Numbered from the stretch's first letter, positions 8,071-29,482 are shown. The stretch is DNA of 64,000 bases from Thermococcus siculi (GCF_002214505.1 NZ_CP015103.1:1612001-1676000); one strand, 5' to 3'. Numbers and translations are program-made. Notes: generated by a model not told the origin, from the letters alone.

Positions 8071-9150
8071 TCACCTCCTTCTTCTGGCAACGGCGATGAC
8101 GGACACCAGGACGAGGAGCCCAATGGAGGTGTAGTAAGCGTATTCGGACGGGACCTCCTGGCGGGGAAACGAAACCTCTTCAACAGCCTCAAAGTCAGCG
8201 TTGGTGTCGTAGAGCTGGAGAACTGGATATACAGAGTAGTCCGCATTTACCTCGTTGAAGTAACATCCCTTGAGGTCGCTGAAGAGCGCGTAGATTATGT
8301 CAGCGGTTCTAATGTCCGCGGGGGGTATCAGCATATCGCCTGCTAGGATTATTCCACTGGCTGGATCATATGTGAATCCGCCGATAATTTCACTGCCGCC
8401 CGTTCCAAAGGGGCATTCCCTCCGGTTGCCTGCGGAAAAGCACACCCGAATTGGGCCGGGATCCCTCTGGGCCAGTACCACCCTGCCGATTGGTGGGCCG
8501 AAGGCACCGTAGTACGTCACAAGCTTCTTGTCGATTCCGAGGGTTCCGTTGAGGTAGAGGGGCGGCGCAACAGGGGTTAGATTCACGTAAGGGGCATCAT
8601 CGATGTTTTCGGTGGGGTCGTACCAGAGGAACGTGTGTCCATAAGTCCTCCCATCCCGTCCGATGACCATGCCATCCCGCTTTCGTATATAGTAACTCCC
8701 ACGGATTTCCAGAGATTTCAGGATAATCTTGTACTCCACCCCTCCGAGCCACCAGGTTTTATTGGCTTTAAATGAAACCACCTCCGACTCATTCCAGAAT
8801 GCCGGCAGGCCGGTACCGTTCTCCATTATGACATCAACGGTAGCGTTGTAGGCCGTTAGCCGGAAGGCTATCCCTAAATGGGTTCCGTTGTCGTGCTCTA
8901 TTCGAAAGATAAGAAAAACGTCCCCCGTCGCGTGAATATTGAAAGGGATCCCACTGTAGTTGTAGAACAGTATCATTGTCATCGGCCGCTCCTTAACACC
9001 TAAGGATTCCTTGTACTGCACATACGGTTCATAGGAAAGGGCGGCGTACTTAACATAAACTCCCGGTTTGGCCCAGTACGGGTGTCCATATGCAGGGAAA
9101 ACAAGAAGGGATATCGTAAATAAAACTCCCAACCCCCAGGGGGCCTTCAT
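8071..9150 (-). CDS. Surface protein B, paralogue of the upstream gene
   Basis: A 359-residue protein from ATG 9150, overlapping the stop of its paralogue (ATGA). It has an N-terminal signal peptide (WGLGVLFTISLLVFPAYG), a large beta-rich outside domain and a C-terminal anchor (YTSIGLLVLVSVIAVA) followed by RRRR. It shares with the preceding gene the motifs KPGVYVKYAAL near the mature N-terminus, YYIRKRDGMV, YGHTFLWYDP, and YDTNADFEAVEEV before the anchor. It also has a CYFN Cys and CFSAGNRRECPFG. The pair arose by duplication. No known family is recognised. It faces the outside and is probably glycosylated (many N-x-S/T). Confidence 0.8.
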   Translation of the reverse strand: MKAPWGLGVLFTISLLVFPAYGHPYWAKPGVYVKYAALSYEPYVQYKESLGVKERPMTMILFYNYSGIPFNIHATGDVFLIFRIEHDNGTHLGIAFRLTAYNATVDVIMENGTGLPAFWNESEVVSFKANKTWWLGGVEYKIILKSLEIRGSYYIRKRDGMVIGRDGRTYGHTFLWYDPTENIDDAPYVNLTPVAPPLYLNGTLGIDKKLVTYYGAFGPPIGRVVLAQRDPGPIRVCFSAGNRRECPFGTGGSEIIGGFTYDPASGIILAGDMLIPPADIRTADIIYALFSDLKGCYFNEVNADYSVYPVLQLYDTNADFEAVEEVSFPRQEVPSEYAYYTSIGLLVLVSVIAVARRRR

Positions 9151-10175
9151 CGCCTCTTCCTCCACGCCACAAACAGTGCAAGCACCAGGAGAAGGACAAC
9201 GGCCGTATATAGATACCTAGTGTCCGTTTCAGATTTTGAAAACTGCACCGTCTCAGCGGCTCCGAACTCTGAATTGGTGTCGTAGAACCCTATTCCGTAG
9301 GTGTAGAGTTTCCCTTTCTCTTTGTGGTTCCTGCTCATGTACATGCCCCACTGGTCCATAAAGTATACCAGCTTAACACCACACGCCGCGAGATCTGGGG
9401 CCGTCGGGAAAAAGCCAGTAACGAACATGCCGGTGGATCCGTCGAAATACAGGACCGCATCGGTTCCCGAGAAAGAGACCTCCCCAACCGGGGTCTTTAT
9501 ACTGCCACCCCCTGCGGTTCTGACGTAGATTGCCGGCTTCGTGAAATTGGAAGTTTTAGTGATTACAGTCACGTCAAGAGGAGTAACGTTCACCACCCTT
9601 GAAACGGAATTGTCCGCGAAGCCAACAAGCTGAAACGGCTGATCCATCGTTATAGGGGCGTTGCCCAGATCGTCCCAGAGGATTGTGTGGCCGTAGTTCG
9701 TGCCCGCTGTATCGAAGACCATGCCGTCATCCTTTCTAATTTTGTAGGTGCATGAGTATCTTGCCTCTGTGACGTTGAATAACGTCTCGTTGTTAAGGTT
9801 CTTCTTTGAGATCAAAGCGGATTCCGGCCACAATATAACCGTCTTGTCGCCAAACTGTTTTATTGTTACGTTAAACATCTCCAAACTCAGCTTCATAAGC
9901 AAGTAGTCTCCCTTGTCGCCTACGATGGTGAACGTCAAATACGTGTCTCCCAGGGCAGACATCTGGATGTAGGTGCCGTTAACCTCAAGGACAACATCAC
10001 CCGTTGAGAGGGACGCGCCCCCTGATTCGTACTTCCGGGCAATTTCTTCGTGTCTTAATGCGGCGTACTTAACATAAACCCCCGGCTTGACCCAGTACGG
10101 CGCGGCTTTAACTGGATATGCACCAATCAGCACGATCAACAGGATTATAAGGAATTTCAGGTTTTTTCCCTTCAA
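9147..10175 (-). CDS. Surface protein A, paralogue of the downstream gene
   Basis: A 342-residue protein from a TTG start at 10175, chosen because GGAGGTGAT ends about five bases upstream and because the signal peptide (KFLIILLIVLIGAYPVKA) then sits at the N-terminus. An alternative ATG at 10211 overlaps the stop of the preceding micropeptide gene. The outside domain carries KPGVYVKYAAL, CTYKIRKDDGMV, YGHTILWDD and YDTNSEFGAAETV; the C-terminal anchor is LYTAVVLLLVLALFVAW followed by RKRR. It is a paralogue of the next gene. Function is unknown. As the first large gene of an ABC operon it could bind or display the transported substrate. Confidence 0.78.
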   Translation of the reverse strand: MKGKNLKFLIILLIVLIGAYPVKAAPYWVKPGVYVKYAALRHEEIARKYESGGASLSTGDVVLEVNGTYIQMSALGDTYLTFTIVGDKGDYLLMKLSLEMFNVTIKQFGDKTVILWPESALISKKNLNNETLFNVTEARYSCTYKIRKDDGMVFDTAGTNYGHTILWDDLGNAPITMDQPFQLVGFADNSVSRVVNVTPLDVTVITKTSNFTKPAIYVRTAGGGSIKTPVGEVSFSGTDAVLYFDGSTGMFVTGFFPTAPDLAACGVKLVYFMDQWGMYMSRNHKEKGKLYTYGIGFYDTNSEFGAAETVQFSKSETDTRYLYTAVVLLLVLALFVAWRKRR

Positions 10176-10207
10176 GACATCACCTCCAAATTGACAACGG
10201 TAGTGTT

Positions 10208-10279
10208 TCATATTGTCGCTGCCGCGAACCCTGTCGCCACTATTAACAGGCCGAACAGCACGGCAACCAACTTCTTCAT
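10208..10279 (-). CDS. 23-residue hydrophobic micropeptide
   Basis: A very short open frame (MKKLVAVLFGLLIVATGFAA then ATI) preceded by GGAGGG eight bases upstream of the ATG. It looks like a free signal peptide or single membrane helix: two Lys, then a hydrophobic stretch, then small residues. The stop TGA overlaps an ATG that is in frame with the next gene. It is the first coding unit after the operon promoter. It could be a secreted or membrane peptide handled by the ABC transporter downstream, or a coupling leader for the first surface protein. It is too short for homology to settle. Confidence 0.55.
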   Translation of the reverse strand: MKKLVAVLFGLLIVATGFAAATI

Positions 10280-10595: not shown

Positions 10596-10859
10596 TCAGT
10601 ACACGTTCTCCCTTTTGCCAACCTTCAGAACTTTTACAAGGCGTTCCTTTTTGTCGTACTCAAAGATTACCCTGTATTCTCCAACCCGGAGGCGGTAGAC
10701 GTTCGTGTAGCCCTTGAGCTTCTGAACGTCCAGACGAGCGAGAGGGAAGAAGGCAAGCTTTGATATTCGATCCTTGAGAAGCTCCCTTTCAGCTTCGGGC
10801 ACCAAGGAAAGTTCTTTCAGTGCTTTTCTGCTTATCAGAACCTTGTTCTCAAAGCTCAT
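10596..10859 (-). CDS. RelE/ParE-family toxin
   Basis: An 87-residue protein with the compact RelE fold signature: N-terminal helix (SRKALKELSLVPEAERELLKDRI), then LDVQKLKGYTNVYRLRVGEYRVIFEYD and VLKVGKRENVY at the end. The core G-x-YRLRVG-x-YRV-x-F motif is typical. RelE toxins cleave mRNA on the ribosome; key basic residues (R in YRLRVGEYR, K and R in KVGKRENVY) are present. The start overlaps the upstream antitoxin-like gene by 11 bases. Confidence 0.85.
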   Translation of the reverse strand: MSFENKVLISRKALKELSLVPEAERELLKDRISKLAFFPLARLDVQKLKGYTNVYRLRVGEYRVIFEYDKKERLVKVLKVGKRENVY

Positions 10860-12755: not shown

Positions 12756-14150
12756 TCATTTGTTTCCTTTACAAAATTCCAGCAGGAACTCCCGCAGTTC
12801 TCTTTTCAGTTTCTCGTCCAGGACGACACCGTTTTTAGTTATGATGACATCGTATCCAATCCTAGAGAGTTCGTAGCCAAAGACACCAAATGGGGTTCCG
12901 TCAAAAAACTGGAAAACCTCCCTATCGTCTCCAAATATATCCTGAAGCCAGCTATTGTAAACTCCTTTGAGTCGGGGATACACTATTACAGCACCACCGC
13001 CAGAGAGTTTTGAGTACGTGTAAACCTGATAGAGTTCGTTGCTGTTTCTTACGAGCTTTCTCTGCCACCTGTCCCTGATCCTGACGCTCAAACTTCTGTA
13101 CTTTACCTCGATTATGCAGTTCCCACTATCCGTTCTGATGAGAATATCAGGAAGTGGCGCCCCGAAGGTGAATATTGCCCCTGCCTTTGACTCGATCTCC
13201 GCTGCGTCCTTCACAACGTGGGGCAGGCTGTACTGTTTGTAAACGACTCCATATCCGTCCAACACTGCCCTAACGGTATGGTACACGAGATCCTCAAACA
13301 GTCGATCCATTCCAATGAAGATTCCTGGATGAAAGTTCTTCTCCCATCCTCTCTCATTGAACCCGAAGATGATCAGCTTGGCCAGTTTATATGCAGGCAG
13401 GAACCTCTCGTTCAAAGGGTTTGGAACAACCCTCACAACATCATTGGGGCGGAGGTTGCTGACCTCATGGAAGTGTCCCAACAGGGTCTCTGCAGCTTTC
13501 CGCACTCCCTTCCACTCGGAGTTCCGGATCGTGGTCTCAAGGGCTGCCTTCAGAACCCTATTCATAGCACTGTCCGTACTAAGATACGTGTGCCTCACGG
13601 GTACCGACGCATACATTGGATTCCTCCTGACAAGCCGGGACAGCAAAACTCTACCCCTGATAGTCTTTGTATTGTCCTCAGTCTCCCTGTATTCCCGGTA
13701 CATACCCCGAAAAACTTCCCTACCGAGCAAAGAGACATAGAGATAGAAGAAGAGTTCATGGAGTGTTTTGCTGCCCTCCGTATAGGCGGAGGCTGCAGAT
13801 TCAATGTCCCGTGGCCCCATCCCAAGACCGCCGCTTAGGTTGAGGAGGTTTAGAAAGAACGTTATAGAGCGTTTTTCATCGGGATCGTTTCTGTATGGCC
13901 TGGGGAGCACCTGCATCATAAAAGGGGTTCTGCCGAAATAATAGGCAAACCCCACGCTTCCGTGGGCTTTTATGTAGTAGTCCCTCTTCTTTATGTCGTA
14001 GTTGAGGCTGAGCACATCGTGGTCTCCCCCGTAGGTCTCATTTATGAAGTCAAAGAACCTCTGGAGTTCCCCAGGGCTTACATCGATCCCCTCCGCCGAA
14101 AGGCTCTGAAGATATCTCCTCTGGAACTCGTAGAGGGTAATGACCTTCAT
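12756..14150 (-). CDS. mcrC: McrC-like restriction nuclease subunit
   Basis: A 464-residue protein of the McrC/LlaJI family. The N-terminal half carries the McrC signature (FYLYVSLLGREVFRGMYREY, TIRGRVLLSRLVRRNP, HTYLSTDSAMNRVLKAAL). The C-terminal half has a PD-(D/E)xK nuclease core: D in LPDILIRTDSG and ExK in CIIEVKYRSL. McrC binds the McrB hexamer and supplies DNA cleavage. Its ATG overlaps the McrB stop (ATGA), so the two are coupled. Base composition is lower in GC than the neighbouring genes, consistent with transfer as a defence cassette. Confidence 0.88.
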   Translation of the reverse strand: MKVITLYEFQRRYLQSLSAEGIDVSPGELQRFFDFINETYGGDHDVLSLNYDIKKRDYYIKAHGSVGFAYYFGRTPFMMQVLPRPYRNDPDEKRSITFFLNLLNLSGGLGMGPRDIESAASAYTEGSKTLHELFFYLYVSLLGREVFRGMYREYRETEDNTKTIRGRVLLSRLVRRNPMYASVPVRHTYLSTDSAMNRVLKAALETTIRNSEWKGVRKAAETLLGHFHEVSNLRPNDVVRVVPNPLNERFLPAYKLAKLIIFGFNERGWEKNFHPGIFIGMDRLFEDLVYHTVRAVLDGYGVVYKQYSLPHVVKDAAEIESKAGAIFTFGAPLPDILIRTDSGNCIIEVKYRSLSVRIRDRWQRKLVRNSNELYQVYTYSKLSGGGAVIVYPRLKGVYNSWLQDIFGDDREVFQFFDGTPFGVFGYELSRIGYDVIITKNGVVLDEKLKRELREFLLEFCKGNK

Positions 14151-16291
14151 TCCACACTCACCAGCCTCTTGAGGGTGCTAATGAACTCATCAATGTCCAT
14201 GCGGATTATCCTTCCCCTGTCGTCTATGAAATCGAAGCCCGGATAGAGGGAGCGGAGCCTTTCCCAGTCATTGTAGAAGTACTCCTGGAAGAGGGGCAGT
14301 ATCTTGTAGTAGAACACCATGTAAAGGGCTTCCTTTGGATTCTCGGACTGGAGAACCTCAAGGAAGTACCCGTGTCCTATGGTATAGTCCTTTCCCTTCT
14401 CAATCTCGATTATCGAGTTTATCCTTGTGAGCAGGTGTTCTAGGTTTATTCCCTCCACCTCAATGCCCCCGAGTTTTTCCGGTCTCGGCAGCACCTCGAC
14501 GAAGGCGAACCTCCTTCTGAGCGCCACGTCCACGAGGGCTATACTCCTGTCCGCGGAGTTCATGGTTCCAATTATGTAAAGGTTGGGGGGTACTGCGAAC
14601 GGCTCTCCCGAGTAGGGGAGGGTCACTATGGCCTCATTCGGACCATTGAGACGCTTGTCGGGATCCAGCAGGGTTATCAGCTCACCCAGTATTCTGCTGA
14701 TGTTGCCCCTGTTTATCTCGTCCACTATCAGATAGAACTCTTCCCTGGGCTGAAGTCTAACGTTCTTCCCGTTCAGTTTTTTCTCCAGAAAATCGATCAC
14801 TGCCTTTTTCATAGTTTCATAGGAAGGATTGCGTTCTCTGTGTCCGTCAGGGAGGGAACTGTAGATCGCCCTTATGGCGAGCTTTTTGAACACACCATCC
14901 ACCACATCGTAGACCATAGTGCCTCCCTTCTTTACCGGCCTAAATCCTTCAATGAAGTCCTCGTAGCTGTAGGACTGGTGGAAGGTCACGAACTCTGCAT
15001 TCTCTGCTATTCTCATTGCCATGTACGTTTTGCCGGTACCGGGGGGACCATAAAGGACGACCTGTCTGAACCTCCTGAGGAGTTGTTCTATGCCAGGCTC
15101 CATCGTTTCATCCAGGAGCCCCAGCTCTCTCGTATCGCGGTTCGATGGGAAGGGAGAAGATGTTTCAGCCTGAGGTGCTGCTCGGGGTGCTGTCTCAACA
15201 TTAAGGACGTAAAGATAGTCCACATCCCGGCGGAGGTAATAGTAGAACCCTCCCCTAGAAGTTCTTCCGGTGGTTCTGCCAAAATAGAGCACCCTTCCAT
15301 CCCGGGAAATTCCAGAGAACTTTGGATCAACAACTCCGGGAACGTATCTTCCAAGCACAATCCGGCCGGTGAGATTGCTTTCCTTTATCTCTTCTACGCT
15401 TTCCAGGACGTCGTAGGGCACTATTCCCGCGTTTAAGTTTCCCCTGTACACCCCAGTTATTATGAAGAGTCCGCTGTCTATAAGGGACACGTACACAAGC
15501 TCCCCAGGGAGCAGCAAAACCCAGTTCTTTGAGGGTGTGAGGAGATAAATCTCCCTGCCCCCCTTGGTTCCAAGAACCGCTACGAATTTGTCCTCTTGGA
15601 CTATCATGTCCCCAATTTGCTTGCCCCCACCTGGAGCCATTGAAAACTTTGAAAGCACCTCCACACCATCCCAGAACTCCATTGGCGAGTAATAGGGGAA
15701 TATCGGGATGGGTATTCTCCCAAAATGGATGCGCTGTTTGTTCCCCTCTCTCCAGGTATAGAGAATGTAGAGCGCATCGTCGGTATCCTTTACCGCATGG
15801 ATGAAAGCGTACCCATTTGGAGGCGTCGGTATCTTGACGATCTCAACTCCTTCAGGGGCCATGTACTCAACTTTGTAATCCGAAAAAACAACCAGCCTCT
15901 CGTTTCTTGTGAAATTAACATAGAGGGGCAGTTTCGAGAAAATTACCTGCAGGGCATCCTTTTCAACGTCCTGCGACTTAACAGGATATATCGTTACGGT
16001 TCCGGAGCCGCATTTCGTGAACACGGCTAGCCTCTCTTCCCCGGGAAAAAGAATCGTTTCGTCCGCACAGGGTATCGGCACTCCGTTTTCCCATCCCTGC
16101 GCCACCTGCCCGGTGACCTCAAAGACATGGAGGAACCTGGAATCGTCCTCCAGCCTGACCATGGCACCAAGGTACTTCCCGTTGGGGAATAGCCTCATCT
16201 CCTCTATAACAAACCCAAAATCTCCGTACTCTCCCTGGAGGAAACTGTTTATAGAATAAACCGAGTTTCTTAGTGGCTCAAAGGCGGTCAT
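14147..16291 (-). CDS. mcrB: McrB-like AAA+ GTPase with N-terminal beta-propeller-like domain
   Basis: A 714-residue protein. The C-terminal third is an McrB AAA+ motor: Walker A YGPPGTGKTYMA (about residue 413), FHQSYSYEDFIEGFRP, Walker B LIVDEINRGNISR, and the McrB-specific IIGTMNSADRSIALVD with RRRFAF. The first 365 residues are repeats of beta strands with hydrophobic cores (RLFPNGKYLGAMVR, ILFPGEERLAVFTK, FTRNERLVVFSD, VQEDKFVAVLG, SRDGRVLYFGR), resembling a six- or seven-bladed propeller, joined by a Pro/Ser-rich linker. Known McrB proteins carry DUF3578, EVE/YTH or PUA-like recognition domains there. The start ATG follows GGTGAT. Confidence 0.85.
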   Translation of the reverse strand: MTAFEPLRNSVYSINSFLQGEYGDFGFVIEEMRLFPNGKYLGAMVRLEDDSRFLHVFEVTGQVAQGWENGVPIPCADETILFPGEERLAVFTKCGSGTVTIYPVKSQDVEKDALQVIFSKLPLYVNFTRNERLVVFSDYKVEYMAPEGVEIVKIPTPPNGYAFIHAVKDTDDALYILYTWREGNKQRIHFGRIPIPIFPYYSPMEFWDGVEVLSKFSMAPGGGKQIGDMIVQEDKFVAVLGTKGGREIYLLTPSKNWVLLLPGELVYVSLIDSGLFIITGVYRGNLNAGIVPYDVLESVEEIKESNLTGRIVLGRYVPGVVDPKFSGISRDGRVLYFGRTTGRTSRGGFYYYLRRDVDYLYVLNVETAPRAAPQAETSSPFPSNRDTRELGLLDETMEPGIEQLLRRFRQVVLYGPPGTGKTYMAMRIAENAEFVTFHQSYSYEDFIEGFRPVKKGGTMVYDVVDGVFKKLAIRAIYSSLPDGHRERNPSYETMKKAVIDFLEKKLNGKNVRLQPREEFYLIVDEINRGNISRILGELITLLDPDKRLNGPNEAIVTLPYSGEPFAVPPNLYIIGTMNSADRSIALVDVALRRRFAFVEVLPRPEKLGGIEVEGINLEHLLTRINSIIEIEKGKDYTIGHGYFLEVLQSENPKEALYMVFYYKILPLFQEYFYNDWERLRSLYPGFDFIDDRGRIIRMDIDEFISTLKRLVSVE

Positions 16292-16322
16292 TACAATCAC
16301 CAAAAGAAATATTGGCCTCCAG

Positions 16323-16337
16323 ATTTATTATATTTTC
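16323..16337 (-). promoter_or_regulatory. BRE/TATA promoter of mcrBC
   Basis: The minus strand reads CGAAAATATAATAAATC, a strong TATA box about 33-46 bases upstream of the McrB ATG. This gives a very short leader of roughly 10-15 bases. Confidence 0.65.
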
Positions 16338-16391: not shown

Positions 16392-16808
16392 TTAGCTCCT
16401 GCCATTTTCTTGGAATTTCCCATTCCTCTCCATCATGTAGTAGACCGTCCTGAGGGGAATCCCCATCCTGGTGCTTATCTCCTTCGCCGGAACGCCCCTC
16501 ATGAGAAGCTCCCTCACCTGTCTGACGGTCTTCTCGTCGTACTTCCGGGGCCTTCCCCTCGGATAGCCCTCCGGAACGAGGTCAATGCCCATCTGGGCGA
16601 GCGCTGCTATAACCTTCTTCGAGACCTTGGGGTAGAGGCTGGGTGGGCAGGATATCTTCCTCACGTTGGGGGCGCGCTCGAGTATCCTAACCAGTATCTC
16701 CTTCGTGGGGCGGAGATTGACGTAGACCTCGGTGACATCGTCGCTGAGGACCCTCTCGAGTTTCCTTATCAGCTCCTCGTTGTTGCGCGCCTTCACCTCC
16801 ACCCTCAT
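16392..16808 (-). CDS. DUF1699 family protein with C-terminal helix-turn-helix
   Basis: A 138-residue protein. The N-terminal 75 residues are alternating strand/helix (MRVEVKARNNEELIRKLERV, VTEVYVNLRPTKEILVRIL, VRKISCPPSLYPKVSKKV). The C-terminal part is a resolvase-like HTH: GYPRGRPRKYDEKTVRQVRE, LLMRGVPAKEISTRMGIPLRTVYYMM. The family is known only from archaea and probably binds DNA. It is the last gene of the aIF1A-RIO1-KH-topoisomerase VI-DUF530 run, four bases after the DUF530 stop, so a link with topoisomerase VI or its regulation is possible but unproven. Confidence 0.8.
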   Translation of the reverse strand: MRVEVKARNNEELIRKLERVLSDDVTEVYVNLRPTKEILVRILERAPNVRKISCPPSLYPKVSKKVIAALAQMGIDLVPEGYPRGRPRKYDEKTVRQVRELLMRGVPAKEISTRMGIPLRTVYYMMERNGKFQENGRS

Positions 16809-25349: not shown

Positions 25350-26735
25350 TCACCTCCCTAGCCTCAGCCTTATCCTGTCCTTCACCTCGAGCAGCCACTC
25401 CAGATAGAGCCAGAGGGAGTTCGTGAACGCCTCCCAGCGGAGAAGCTCGTTCAGGGCAACTCCCATAACGACGGCAGCCGGAGGAACCAGGGCCGTCGCG
25501 TAGAAGCTGAACTGCGTCGTCCCCCCGAGGAGGTACTGGAGAAGGAACAGAAGCGTCGTGCTCCAGAACACACCAAACTGAGCCAGGACTCCGCGCCTTC
25601 TCCTGTAGAGCCAGGGAAGTGCCAGAATGAACAGCACCATGGCCATGAGCAGGAACGGGTCGGTCTGTGCGAAGACGTTGGGGTTGTAGTGGAGCGCGAA
25701 GGCCTTCTTGTTCACGAACCACTCCCAGACCGGGGAAGCGGCTGGGTGGCCGCCCTTGTTGGAGAGGTGCCACTTGAAGCTTCCAAGGAAGTCGTCGAAC
25801 CACTTCTTTGGACCGACCGCTATCATGGCCGGGACGTTTGGAAGGAGGAAGCCAATGGCCGGGAGAATGAGTATCGTGGTTATGAAGCCCACTATGTTCC
25901 TCTCGCGCCTGAACGCCCTGAACAGAACGACCGGCCAGCCAAAGCCACCGCTGAGCTTGGCCGCTCCAGCGAGACCCACCGCAAAGGCCGCGGAGCGATC
26001 CCTCTCCAGAGCCAGAAAGAAAACGAAGAGGGCAACGAAGAGGCTGACGTAGATGTCGAGCATAGCAACGGTTGACATGGCCTGGAGCGTCGGATCCGCC
26101 ACGGCGAAAACGAGGGCTATTAGCCCGGCAAGGTAGCTTCCGCTTATTTTGTAGGCGGCGAGGGCAACGAGAATGATTGTAAGAACGAAGGCGATTATGC
26201 CCGGAACGCGCCAGTTTATCGGCTTATCATCGAGCAGCATCCCCAGCATTATGAAGTCCTTCCCGAGGAAGGGGTGCTCCGTGTTCAGGTAGTTCTGGAT
26301 GTTTTCCTTGTCGGGATACCAGAAGCCCGGAACCGTGTAGTAGGCCCCCTCCGGGACGGTCTTCGAGAGGTCTTCCAGAAACGAATCGAACTGCTCCGGC
26401 GGAATCTCGAAGTAAACCCCCGGAAACTTGAGGTACTCCTTTTCGTAGGTGGCGTTGTGTCTCAGGGCGAGCTTCTCAACATCGTACTGGTACTTTATCC
26501 GGACGCTCTGGTTGGAGAAGATTACGTTTACCCCCAGCGAACCGGTGCTCTCGTTCACGTGGGTTAGGGAAACCCCGAGCCTGTGGAGGATGTTCCTGCT
26601 GGCCGGGACGTACCAGACCTCATCGCTCACGTAGTCATGAAAAACGGGCTGGGAGGCAAAGTCGTAGACGTACCAGAAGGCAGCGAGAGACGTGATGAAG
26701 ATTATCAGGATGAAGGCGATTCTTCTCCAGTCCAT
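25350..26735 (-). CDS. GT39/PMT-like membrane glycosyltransferase
   Basis: A 461-residue integral membrane protein of the protein-O-mannosyltransferase superfamily. The first outside loop carries an acidic pair in HDYVSDEVWYVPASRNIL (catalytic DE). A large loop follows, then about ten membrane helices (GIIAFVLTIILVALAAYK, GLIALVFAVADPTLQ, FVALFVFFLAL, and more). NTEHPFLGKDFIML and DPTLQAMSTVAMLDIY match conserved PMT loops. The donor is probably a dolichyl-phosphate sugar. GGAGGTG precedes the ATG. The acceptor is unknown. Confidence 0.82.
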   Translation of the reverse strand: MDWRRIAFILIIFITSLAAFWYVYDFASQPVFHDYVSDEVWYVPASRNILHRLGVSLTHVNESTGSLGVNVIFSNQSVRIKYQYDVEKLALRHNATYEKEYLKFPGVYFEIPPEQFDSFLEDLSKTVPEGAYYTVPGFWYPDKENIQNYLNTEHPFLGKDFIMLGMLLDDKPINWRVPGIIAFVLTIILVALAAYKISGSYLAGLIALVFAVADPTLQAMSTVAMLDIYVSLFVALFVFFLALERDRSAAFAVGLAGAAKLSGGFGWPVVLFRAFRRERNIVGFITTILILPAIGFLLPNVPAMIAVGPKKWFDDFLGSFKWHLSNKGGHPAASPVWEWFVNKKAFALHYNPNVFAQTDPFLLMAMVLFILALPWLYRRRRGVLAQFGVFWSTTLLFLLQYLLGGTTQFSFYATALVPPAAVVMGVALNELLRWEAFTNSLWLYLEWLLEVKDRIRLRLGR

Positions 26736-28150: not shown

Positions 28151-28250
28151 TCCCGCCCTGAAGGGCGAGGTTCCAACGGTTTAACCCCTCGCCACGGACG
28201 GGAAGGTTTGAGGGGTCTTCATTAGAACCCAATCCAAGTTGGGTTCTTCG
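28140..28250 (-). ncRNA. Predicted right-end guide RNA (reRNA/omegaRNA) of TnpB
   Basis: By analogy with characterised TnpB systems, the RNA scaffold comes from the tnpB 3' end plus the right-end hairpin, with a guide taken from flanking DNA. Here the minus strand from the tnpB end runs through the hairpin with GCCCTTCAGGGC, then into the PIN remnant (AGGTCAGCGACGCCC). The location is inferred, not seen as a defined transcript. Confidence 0.4.
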
Positions 28251-29482
28251 AACCCCTCTGGGAGGGTCTTCCCCCAGTTACCCCTCCTCTGAGCGTAAAA
28301 CCCGCTCAGATTTGGGGTTATGGTTTTCACGACCTTTTTCAAAATGTTGAAGGCTCCAACTAAGTCAGAGTTAAACACAAGCCCCGTCTCGGGACACTTA
28401 AACAAACCCCGAACAAACCTCGCCCCCTCATGAGGCCTCCCGCAAACGGGACAAGTTTTGGAAGTAAAAGCCTCACTAACAACAAAAACCTGAATACCAT
28501 ACTCTTCAGAGACTTCCTTCAGGCGTTTAATGAGATAGTTAAACCTCCAAACGTGGGAGAGGAGATAGTTCTGCTTTTTGCTCTTATCGGAGTTCCTGCT
28601 AATGCCCTTTGGATAGCCCACCACGATTCTCGAAACGCCGAGATGATAAAGCCTTTCAACAGTTCTTCTTACTGCCGTGTTAATGTAGTGCTTGGCTTGA
28701 AGCTTGGCCTTCTGGTGCATTCTTGCGAGTTTCCTACTCTTTTTAACTCCAGACTTGTTGAGTTTTGACTGGTAATCAGCTATCCTCTTCCGCCAGTAAA
28801 AATCAATGCTTTTCAACGGTCTGCCGTTCACCAAGAAACTCTGCCCGTTCTCAAGGTAGACGGCCATTAGATTATTCACTCCCAAGTCAATTCCCGCCGA
28901 GAGGTTGCCTAGGGGTTCTCTTGGAACTTCAACCCATTCCTCACCCTGAAGTTTCTCCTTTACCGTGATGCTAATGTGAGCATACCATTTCCGCCTTACG
29001 GGGTCGTATTTGATTTCTAACCGCCCTTGCTTGCCCTTCAAGTGAATTCTGCCTTTGAATTGAATTTCTAAGCGTTTGAATTTTCCAAGGCCTTTGAGGA
29101 TTAGTTTGTTACCCTCAATCTTGTATTGGTCGTTTCTTAGAACGATTAAGCCCTCTCCCTTGACGTAATTCGGCGGTTTTGGTTTAAGCCACTTGGGGAG
29201 TTCTCCGCTCCTTTTATTCCTGATGAGTGAGAAGAAGGAACGCCAGGCTTCCGCATTCTTCCTGCAAATTTGCTGAACCGTTGCCGAGCCTATTTGAGAT
29301 TTAAACTCTTCATAAACCGTTTTCTCAGTTTTGTTGAAGTCTACTGGCTTCCCCTCAAAGAATTCTTGTCTTCTCAGGTAGTTCACCTTGTTCCAGATTT
29401 TCGAGCTGATTAGGGCTAACTCGAAAAGGATTTTCTCTTGGGCCTTTGAGGGCTGGAGTTTTACTGTTATTGTTCGCTTCAT
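28181..29482 (-). CDS. tnpB: TnpB, RNA-guided nuclease of IS605-type element
   Basis: A 433-residue TnpB starting MKRTITVKLQPSKAQEKIL. RuvC-I is AGIDLGVNNLMAVY; RuvC-III is FNSDLVGAFNILKK. The RuvC-II position reads RIVVGYPKGISRN, lacking the usual Glu, but a Glu occurs shortly after in VSEAFTSKTCPVCG. The zinc region has CPVCG, then KCPETG, so the fourth Cys of the ribbon is missing, as in other Thermococcales members of this subgroup. It uses a guide RNA (omega/reRNA) encoded at the element right end, downstream of and overlapping the gene 3' end. Confidence 0.92.
   Translation of the reverse strand: MKRTITVKLQPSKAQEKILFELALISSKIWNKVNYLRRQEFFEGKPVDFNKTEKTVYEEFKSQIGSATVQQICRKNAEAWRSFFSLIRNKRSGELPKWLKPKPPNYVKGEGLIVLRNDQYKIEGNKLILKGLGKFKRLEIQFKGRIHLKGKQGRLEIKYDPVRRKWYAHISITVKEKLQGEEWVEVPREPLGNLSAGIDLGVNNLMAVYLENGQSFLVNGRPLKSIDFYWRKRIADYQSKLNKSGVKKSRKLARMHQKAKLQAKHYINTAVRRTVERLYHLGVSRIVVGYPKGISRNSDKSKKQNYLLSHVWRFNYLIKRLKEVSEEYGIQVFVVSEAFTSKTCPVCGRPHEGARFVRGLFKCPETGLVFNSDLVGAFNILKKVVKTITPNLSGFYAQRRGNWGKTLPEGFEEPNLDWVLMKTPQTFPSVARG

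Follow-up and report, generated by a model that had tools for sequence, protein, structure and literature searches.

What selects the target of an McrBC restriction system whose McrB carries none of the usual readers? The McrB recognition domains described in the work cited here are small nucleic-acid readers, with DUF3578 reading 5mC, YTH reading 6mA and B3 reading an unmodified site (PMC7680126). We analyzed a locus in a 64,000-nucleotide stretch of Thermococcus siculi DNA (GCF_002214505.1, NZ_CP015103.1:1612001-1676000; hereafter "the window"), where an earlier note had described an McrB with a beta-propeller-like N-terminal part of about 365 residues and had proposed this part as a new means of target recognition.

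The mcrB reading frame holds as the earlier note had drawn it, opening with an ATG at 16291, closing with a stop at 14147 after 714 codons, and sharing the nucleotides ATGA (14150-14147) with the start of mcrC (Table 1). The TATA-like stretch lies ~35 bases upstream of mcrB. Residues 401-680 align with the GTPase of T. gammatolerans McrB (PDB 6ut3) at E 3.9e-75, the GTPase part also matches Pfam AAA_5 (E 4.6e-15), and the Walker A (GPPGTGKT), Walker B (DEINRGN) and MNxxDRS (MNSxDRS) motifs are invariant in 21/21 McrB copies. Judged by these motifs, this part is a canonical McrB GTPase. In every carrier mcrB is followed by mcrC (in L125, the contig ends within mcrC, which continues on another contig), and the PD...ExK nuclease residues of McrC are retained in every copy read. 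With GTPase motifs and an McrC PD-(D/E)xK nuclease in one operon, the locus is by sequence an McrBC locus, and the modification-dependent, GTP-dependent DNA cleavage expected of that class is a putative activity here. The genome, a single contig of 2.03 Mb, encodes one McrB of this kind.

Table 1. Features of the mcrBC locus, in window coordinates; residue numbers are those of McrB.
Feature	Position	Strand	Basis
mcrC, 464 aa	12756..14150	(-)	Pfam McrBC PF10117, E 1.2e-46
mcrB variant, 714 aa	14147..16291	(-)	ORF; TgMcrB 6ut3, E 3.9e-75; 20 full-length relatives
McrB AAA+ GTPase, residues 401-714	14150..15091	(-)	Sequence matches; GPPGTGKT, DEINRGN, MNSADRS
Variable linker, residues 367-400, with recombination step between N-domain and GTPase close by	15092..15193	(-)	Alignment; L122 vs L124/L123 identity step
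N-domain, residues 1-366: helix 5-22, then predicted seven-bladed beta-propeller	15194..16291	(-)	AlphaFold2, Foldseek
Predicted blade 7, low confidence, residues 323-364	15200..15325	(-)	pLDDT below 50 from residue 318
Predicted blade 6, residues 264-316	15344..15502	(-)	Strands 264-271, 274-280, 284-292, 308-316
Predicted blade 5, residues 226-260	15512..15616	(-)	Strands 226-232, 235-243, 247-251, 256-260
Predicted blade 4, residues 162-217, helix insertion 203-209	15641..15808	(-)	Strands 162-169, 173-182, 185-194, 211-217
Predicted blade 3, residues 124-155	15827..15922	(-)	Strands 124-127, 132-137, 150-155
Predicted blade 2, residues 79-118	15938..16057	(-)	Strands 79-83, 87-92, 98-103, 114-118
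Predicted blade 1, residues 27-73	16073..16213	(-)	Strands 27-34, 40-47, 52-58, 71-73
Likely Shine-Dalgarno of mcrB, GGTGAT	16296..16301	(-)	Sequence
AAAATATAATAAAT, TATA-like, AT-rich stretch, possible own promoter of mcrB	16323..16336	(-)	By eye only

Elsewhere in the window, all on the (-) strand, we observed an IS605-type OrfB/TnpB protein with a Cas12f1-like TNB domain (28181-29482), a ParE-like toxin (10596-10859; PF05016, E 2.2e-7) and a 461-aa ORF with no Pfam match at E<=0.001 (25350-26735). Two adjacent, overlapping proteins at 8071-10211, also on the (-) strand, resemble paralogues and have no Pfam match; in both, a signal-like segment precedes a sequence resembling PYWxKPGVYVKYAAL, and the C-terminus has a hydrophobic segment with a basic tail.

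As the earlier note had read from repeated strand motifs, the N-terminal part of McrB (residues 1-366, hereafter the N-domain) is beta-rich. It has no match in Pfam, NCBIfam, PHROGs or PDB sequences. The earlier note's contention that the usual small reader is missing also held: Pfam and PDB searches at E values up to 1-10 found no DUF3578, EVE, YTH/PUA or B3 domain at the McrB N-terminus. Because N-domains vary within the McrBC family, this marks a variant rather than an exclusion from it. The N-domain is not a chance reading frame: copies in 20 further Thermococcus genomes are 45-62% identical to it with zero internal stops, and dN/dS is 0.04-0.17 in the pairs permitting an estimate. Membership in the WD40, kelch or S9 (DPP-IV, POP) families was rejected, the sole Pfam hit being Beta-prop_Aladin at E 0.37 in 2/20 members; at profile level the domain joins none of WD40, DPP-IV and kelch.

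Two AlphaFold2 models, each based on a two-sequence alignment of the window's N-domain with its relative L001, reached pLDDT 69.4 and pTM 0.71 with the window's domain as query, and pLDDT 67.0 and pTM 0.66 with L001 as query. Both place an N-terminal helix before strands in about seven groups of four. For both models, the named top Foldseek matches in the PDB (best E 3.1e-7, model 1) are propeller-containing proteins of many families, including prolyl oligopeptidase, acylaminoacyl peptidase, WD40, lactonase, eIF2A, plexin and DDB1, and the BFVD matches include viral proteins that resemble propellers, for instance kelch-like proteins and proteins with WD40 repeats. TM-scores are modest (maximum 0.52) and rmsd is often near 10 Å. 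The repeated strand motifs singled out in the earlier note, NGKYLGAMVR, ERLAVFTK, RLVVFSD, KFVAVLG and RVLYFGR (residues 37-46, 86-93, 132-138, 235-241 and 333-339), all prove to be second strands, of predicted blades 1, 2, 3, 5 and 7 respectively. Its propeller reading is thus backed by two AlphaFold2 models and three Foldseek searches, but ring closure is not demonstrated, because the last blade has a pLDDT below 50 in both models. Overall, these predictions suggest that the N-domain is probably a seven-bladed beta-propeller.

A survey for McrB proteins with the same N-domain, an idea raised with the propeller reading, recovered it in 21/94 Thermococcales genomes, all Thermococcus (21 of the 60 genomes sampled in the genus, leaving 39/60 without), and always in an open frame of ~700 aa together with the GTPase. 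No relative was found at E<=0.001 outside the genus in 396 genomes of 216 genera, a weak 79-residue match in G109 (E 0.0025) being taken as chance, and none was found in viral contigs, phages or plasmids. Since there is also no sign of an integration element, we rejected a mobile origin and consider exchange by homologous recombination more likely.

Carriers share the gene order Topo VI-B, Topo VI-A, DUF530, HTH, mcrB, mcrC, usually followed by GTP cyclohydrolase; the exceptions are L117, where the contig ends, and L116, where the upstream genes differ, and the HTH strand is not always called alike, ORF calling being crude. At the same site, 20/20 non-carriers read have the HTH gene, with or without a DUF4129 gene, and then GTP cyclohydrolase, with no McrBC traces. 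Because all 20 empty sites also carry the HTH gene (16392-16808), we rejected it as a component of the system. On a DUF530 tree, carriers are interleaved with empty sites; the best tree requires no fewer than 10 changes of state, and well-supported branches force 6. The genome that we take to be T. gammatolerans (G019, locus L204) has an empty site here and another McrB elsewhere, and this variant may therefore have escaped structural study.

Among carriers, Topo VI is the most alike (mean pairwise identity 0.89-0.91), ahead of the GTPase (0.70), McrC (0.58) and the N-domain (0.54). In 209/210 carrier pairs the N-domain shows lower identity than the GTPase, and in 15/20 genomes its nearest relative is not that of TopVI-B. 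Against L124 and L123, L122 keeps ~90-97% DNA identity through most of the flanking DNA, the GTPase and McrC, but identity falls to mostly 65-78% within the N-domain; the steps lie close to the start of mcrB and immediately ahead of the P-loop. At fourfold sites, identity in one of these comparisons is 0.32 for the N-domain vs 0.84 for the GTPase (p=3e-18); in the other, the values are 0.34 and 0.77 (p=3.5e-12). Because synonymous sites are saturated too, we rejected positive selection behind the divergence of the L122 pair; the N-domain was replaced rather than evolving faster as a protein. The two comparisons view one lineage, so the count of swaps is at least one. In the pair L129/L132, the GTPase is likewise more alike than the N-domain (p=2e-10). 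These sequence comparisons indicate that the N-domain is swapped independently of the GTPase in one lineage, as specificity modules of restriction systems behave. HsdS and other type I specificity domains are likewise exchanged independently of their enzyme core; the proteins are unrelated, and the likeness is one of evolutionary behavior only. Separately, L113 and L114 have McrBC fourfold identity of 0.74-0.82 vs 0.44-0.67 in the flanks, a sign of recent whole-system transfer between species at the same site, and whole systems therefore move too.

In the genome that we take to be T. kodakarensis KOD1 (G024), mcrB sits four genes away from Top6B, the same spacing as between TK0795 and TK0799. 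Read from a GTG start, the mcrB product has a calculated mass of 79.68 kDa, and the listed mass of TK0795 is 79.7 kDa. The mcrBC pair spans ~3.53 kb, which fits the change from 4.8 to 1.3 kb in the PCR for TK0794-TK0795 given in the deletion study (PMC13385129). TK0794-TK0795 (McrBC1) is thus the T. kodakarensis orthologue of this system. It has been published only as a putative 5mC restriction GTPase, with the N-domain undescribed in the T. kodakarensis papers cited here.

The same study reports that strain TS902, deleted for TK0794-TK0795, has the highest transformation efficiency, and that the McrBC effect concerns autonomous plasmids and not integrative ones; these data refer to deletion of the whole mcrBC rather than of the N-domain (PMC13385129). 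McrBC deletions, including TS902, also grow worse (PMC13385129), so an indirect effect on transformation is possible. Its authors favor methylcytosine sensing, which we doubt is the whole story because strain trends are similar for dam+/dcm+ and dam-/dcm- E. coli plasmid (PMC13385129). The published deletion data show that McrBC1 acts against plasmids that replicate, apparently irrespective of dam/dcm methylation.

Taking this evidence together, we consider it reasonably probable that the locus is an McrBC-type system in which the small modified-base reader is replaced by a probable propeller of ~366 residues acting as the target-recognition module. For the recognition role advanced by the earlier note, the cassette-like exchange of the N-domain gives independent support. 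Six McrB subunits would assemble a GTPase ring displaying six propellers, the propellers would bind a feature of foreign DNA and thereby recruit the ring, and McrC would dock in the ring, stimulate GTP hydrolysis and cut the DNA via its PD-ExK nuclease. All 21 N-domain copies are acidic, with a net charge between -13 and -1 and an average pI of 5.5, and McrC is basic on average, which makes direct reading of DNA less likely and recognition of a protein or nucleoprotein more likely. We prefer, as a near-even call, that the feature recognized is an invader protein or nucleoprotein state, for instance plasmid replication complexes, and not a methylated base. A fuller version, which we put forward as possible but speculative, is that the propellers sense a protein or nucleoprotein complex that is variable and sits on foreign DNA as it replicates, such as the complex that replicates rolling-circle plasmids like the pTN1 derivatives, aiming the GTP-driven nuclease independently of base modification, with swaps giving strains different targets.

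Alternatively, the propeller may read DNA directly, modified or in a sequence-specific manner, in which case only the reader would be unusual and the system would otherwise be an ordinary type IV enzyme that depends on modification. Some propellers do bind DNA, among them DDB2 and the GyrA C-terminal domain. All well-studied McrB N-domains read DNA (PMC7680126), and in the T. kodakarensis study every strain is transformed better by dam-/dcm- plasmid (PMC13385129). However, the same study records that methylation still mattered in a strain without both McrBCs (PMC13385129), and both the similar trend of the McrBC1 effect with dam-/dcm- plasmid and the acidity of every N-domain copy weigh against direct reading, which we regard as unlikely though worth keeping in view.

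We think it improbable that the N-domain has another all-beta fold, such as tandem beta-sandwiches, with its propeller matches an artefact of shallow alignments. Such a fold would accord with models of two sequences each that leave the C-terminal 50 residues unmodeled, and with the weak internal repeat, a 20-sequence N-domain profile matching itself off the diagonal only at E 0.08-0.24, although these matches join blades 1-2, 3-6 and 3-7 and to that extent speak for the propeller. It would also accord with the rejected kinship to Thermococcus S9 propellers, for which hhalign gave a probability of 1.8%, near controls; because of this comparison, the propeller is a fold-level claim and not one of membership in a known family. 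S9 peptidase and WD40 propellers (6can, 4yhc, 3wj9) accordingly share the predicted fold with no detectable sequence homology. Against another fold, two different queries gave the same strand pattern, and the named top PDB matches are overwhelmingly propeller-containing proteins of unrelated families; the two models have 82 and 96 matches, respectively, at E<=0.001.

Least probable of all is a housekeeping role in which the propeller serves for interaction or tethering, as part of a chromosome-bound GTPase/nuclease near Topo VI for which restriction is secondary: mass spectrometry of chromosomes isolated from T. kodakarensis identified both TK0795 and Top6B TK0799 (PMC7325993, table 3), the locus is fixed beside Topo VI, and McrBC deletion lowers growth (PMC13385129), but 39/60 Thermococcus genomes do without the system, the site is cleanly empty in 20/20 non-carriers read, McrBC diverges far faster than its neighbors and is exchanged, and co-sedimentation of TK0795 is possible because large complexes, CDC48 and acylaminoacyl peptidase, share its list (PMC7325993).

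Returning to an McrBC with a propeller as its recognition module, a close, well-described counterpart is the T. gammatolerans McrBC (6ut3-6ut8, 6p0f), from the same genus, which has the GTPase ring and McrC nuclease in common; TgMcrB is 613 residues long and reads 6mA through a YTH domain of ~185 aa, whereas here the domain is ~366 aa and beta-propeller-like. E. coli K-12 McrBC shares the MNxxDRS GTPase and PD-(D/E)xK McrC but carries DUF3578/ADAM; the Thermococcus system lacks DUF3578, and any link to 5mC is putative. CoCoNuT systems differ in having an NxD motif and long coiled-coils, in contrast to the NxxD motif (MNSADRS) and coiled-coil-free, strand-based models here. A census of 34,000 McrBC members does not mention a propeller (PMC11090510). 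Overall, we describe a variant of McrBC in which the recognition role is supported by evolution and genetics, and the propeller by prediction. If this is right, restriction would gain, in the propeller, a fold known chiefly for binding proteins, and there would be a simple explanation of why the deletion of TK0794-TK0795 admits replicating plasmids whatever their dam/dcm state.
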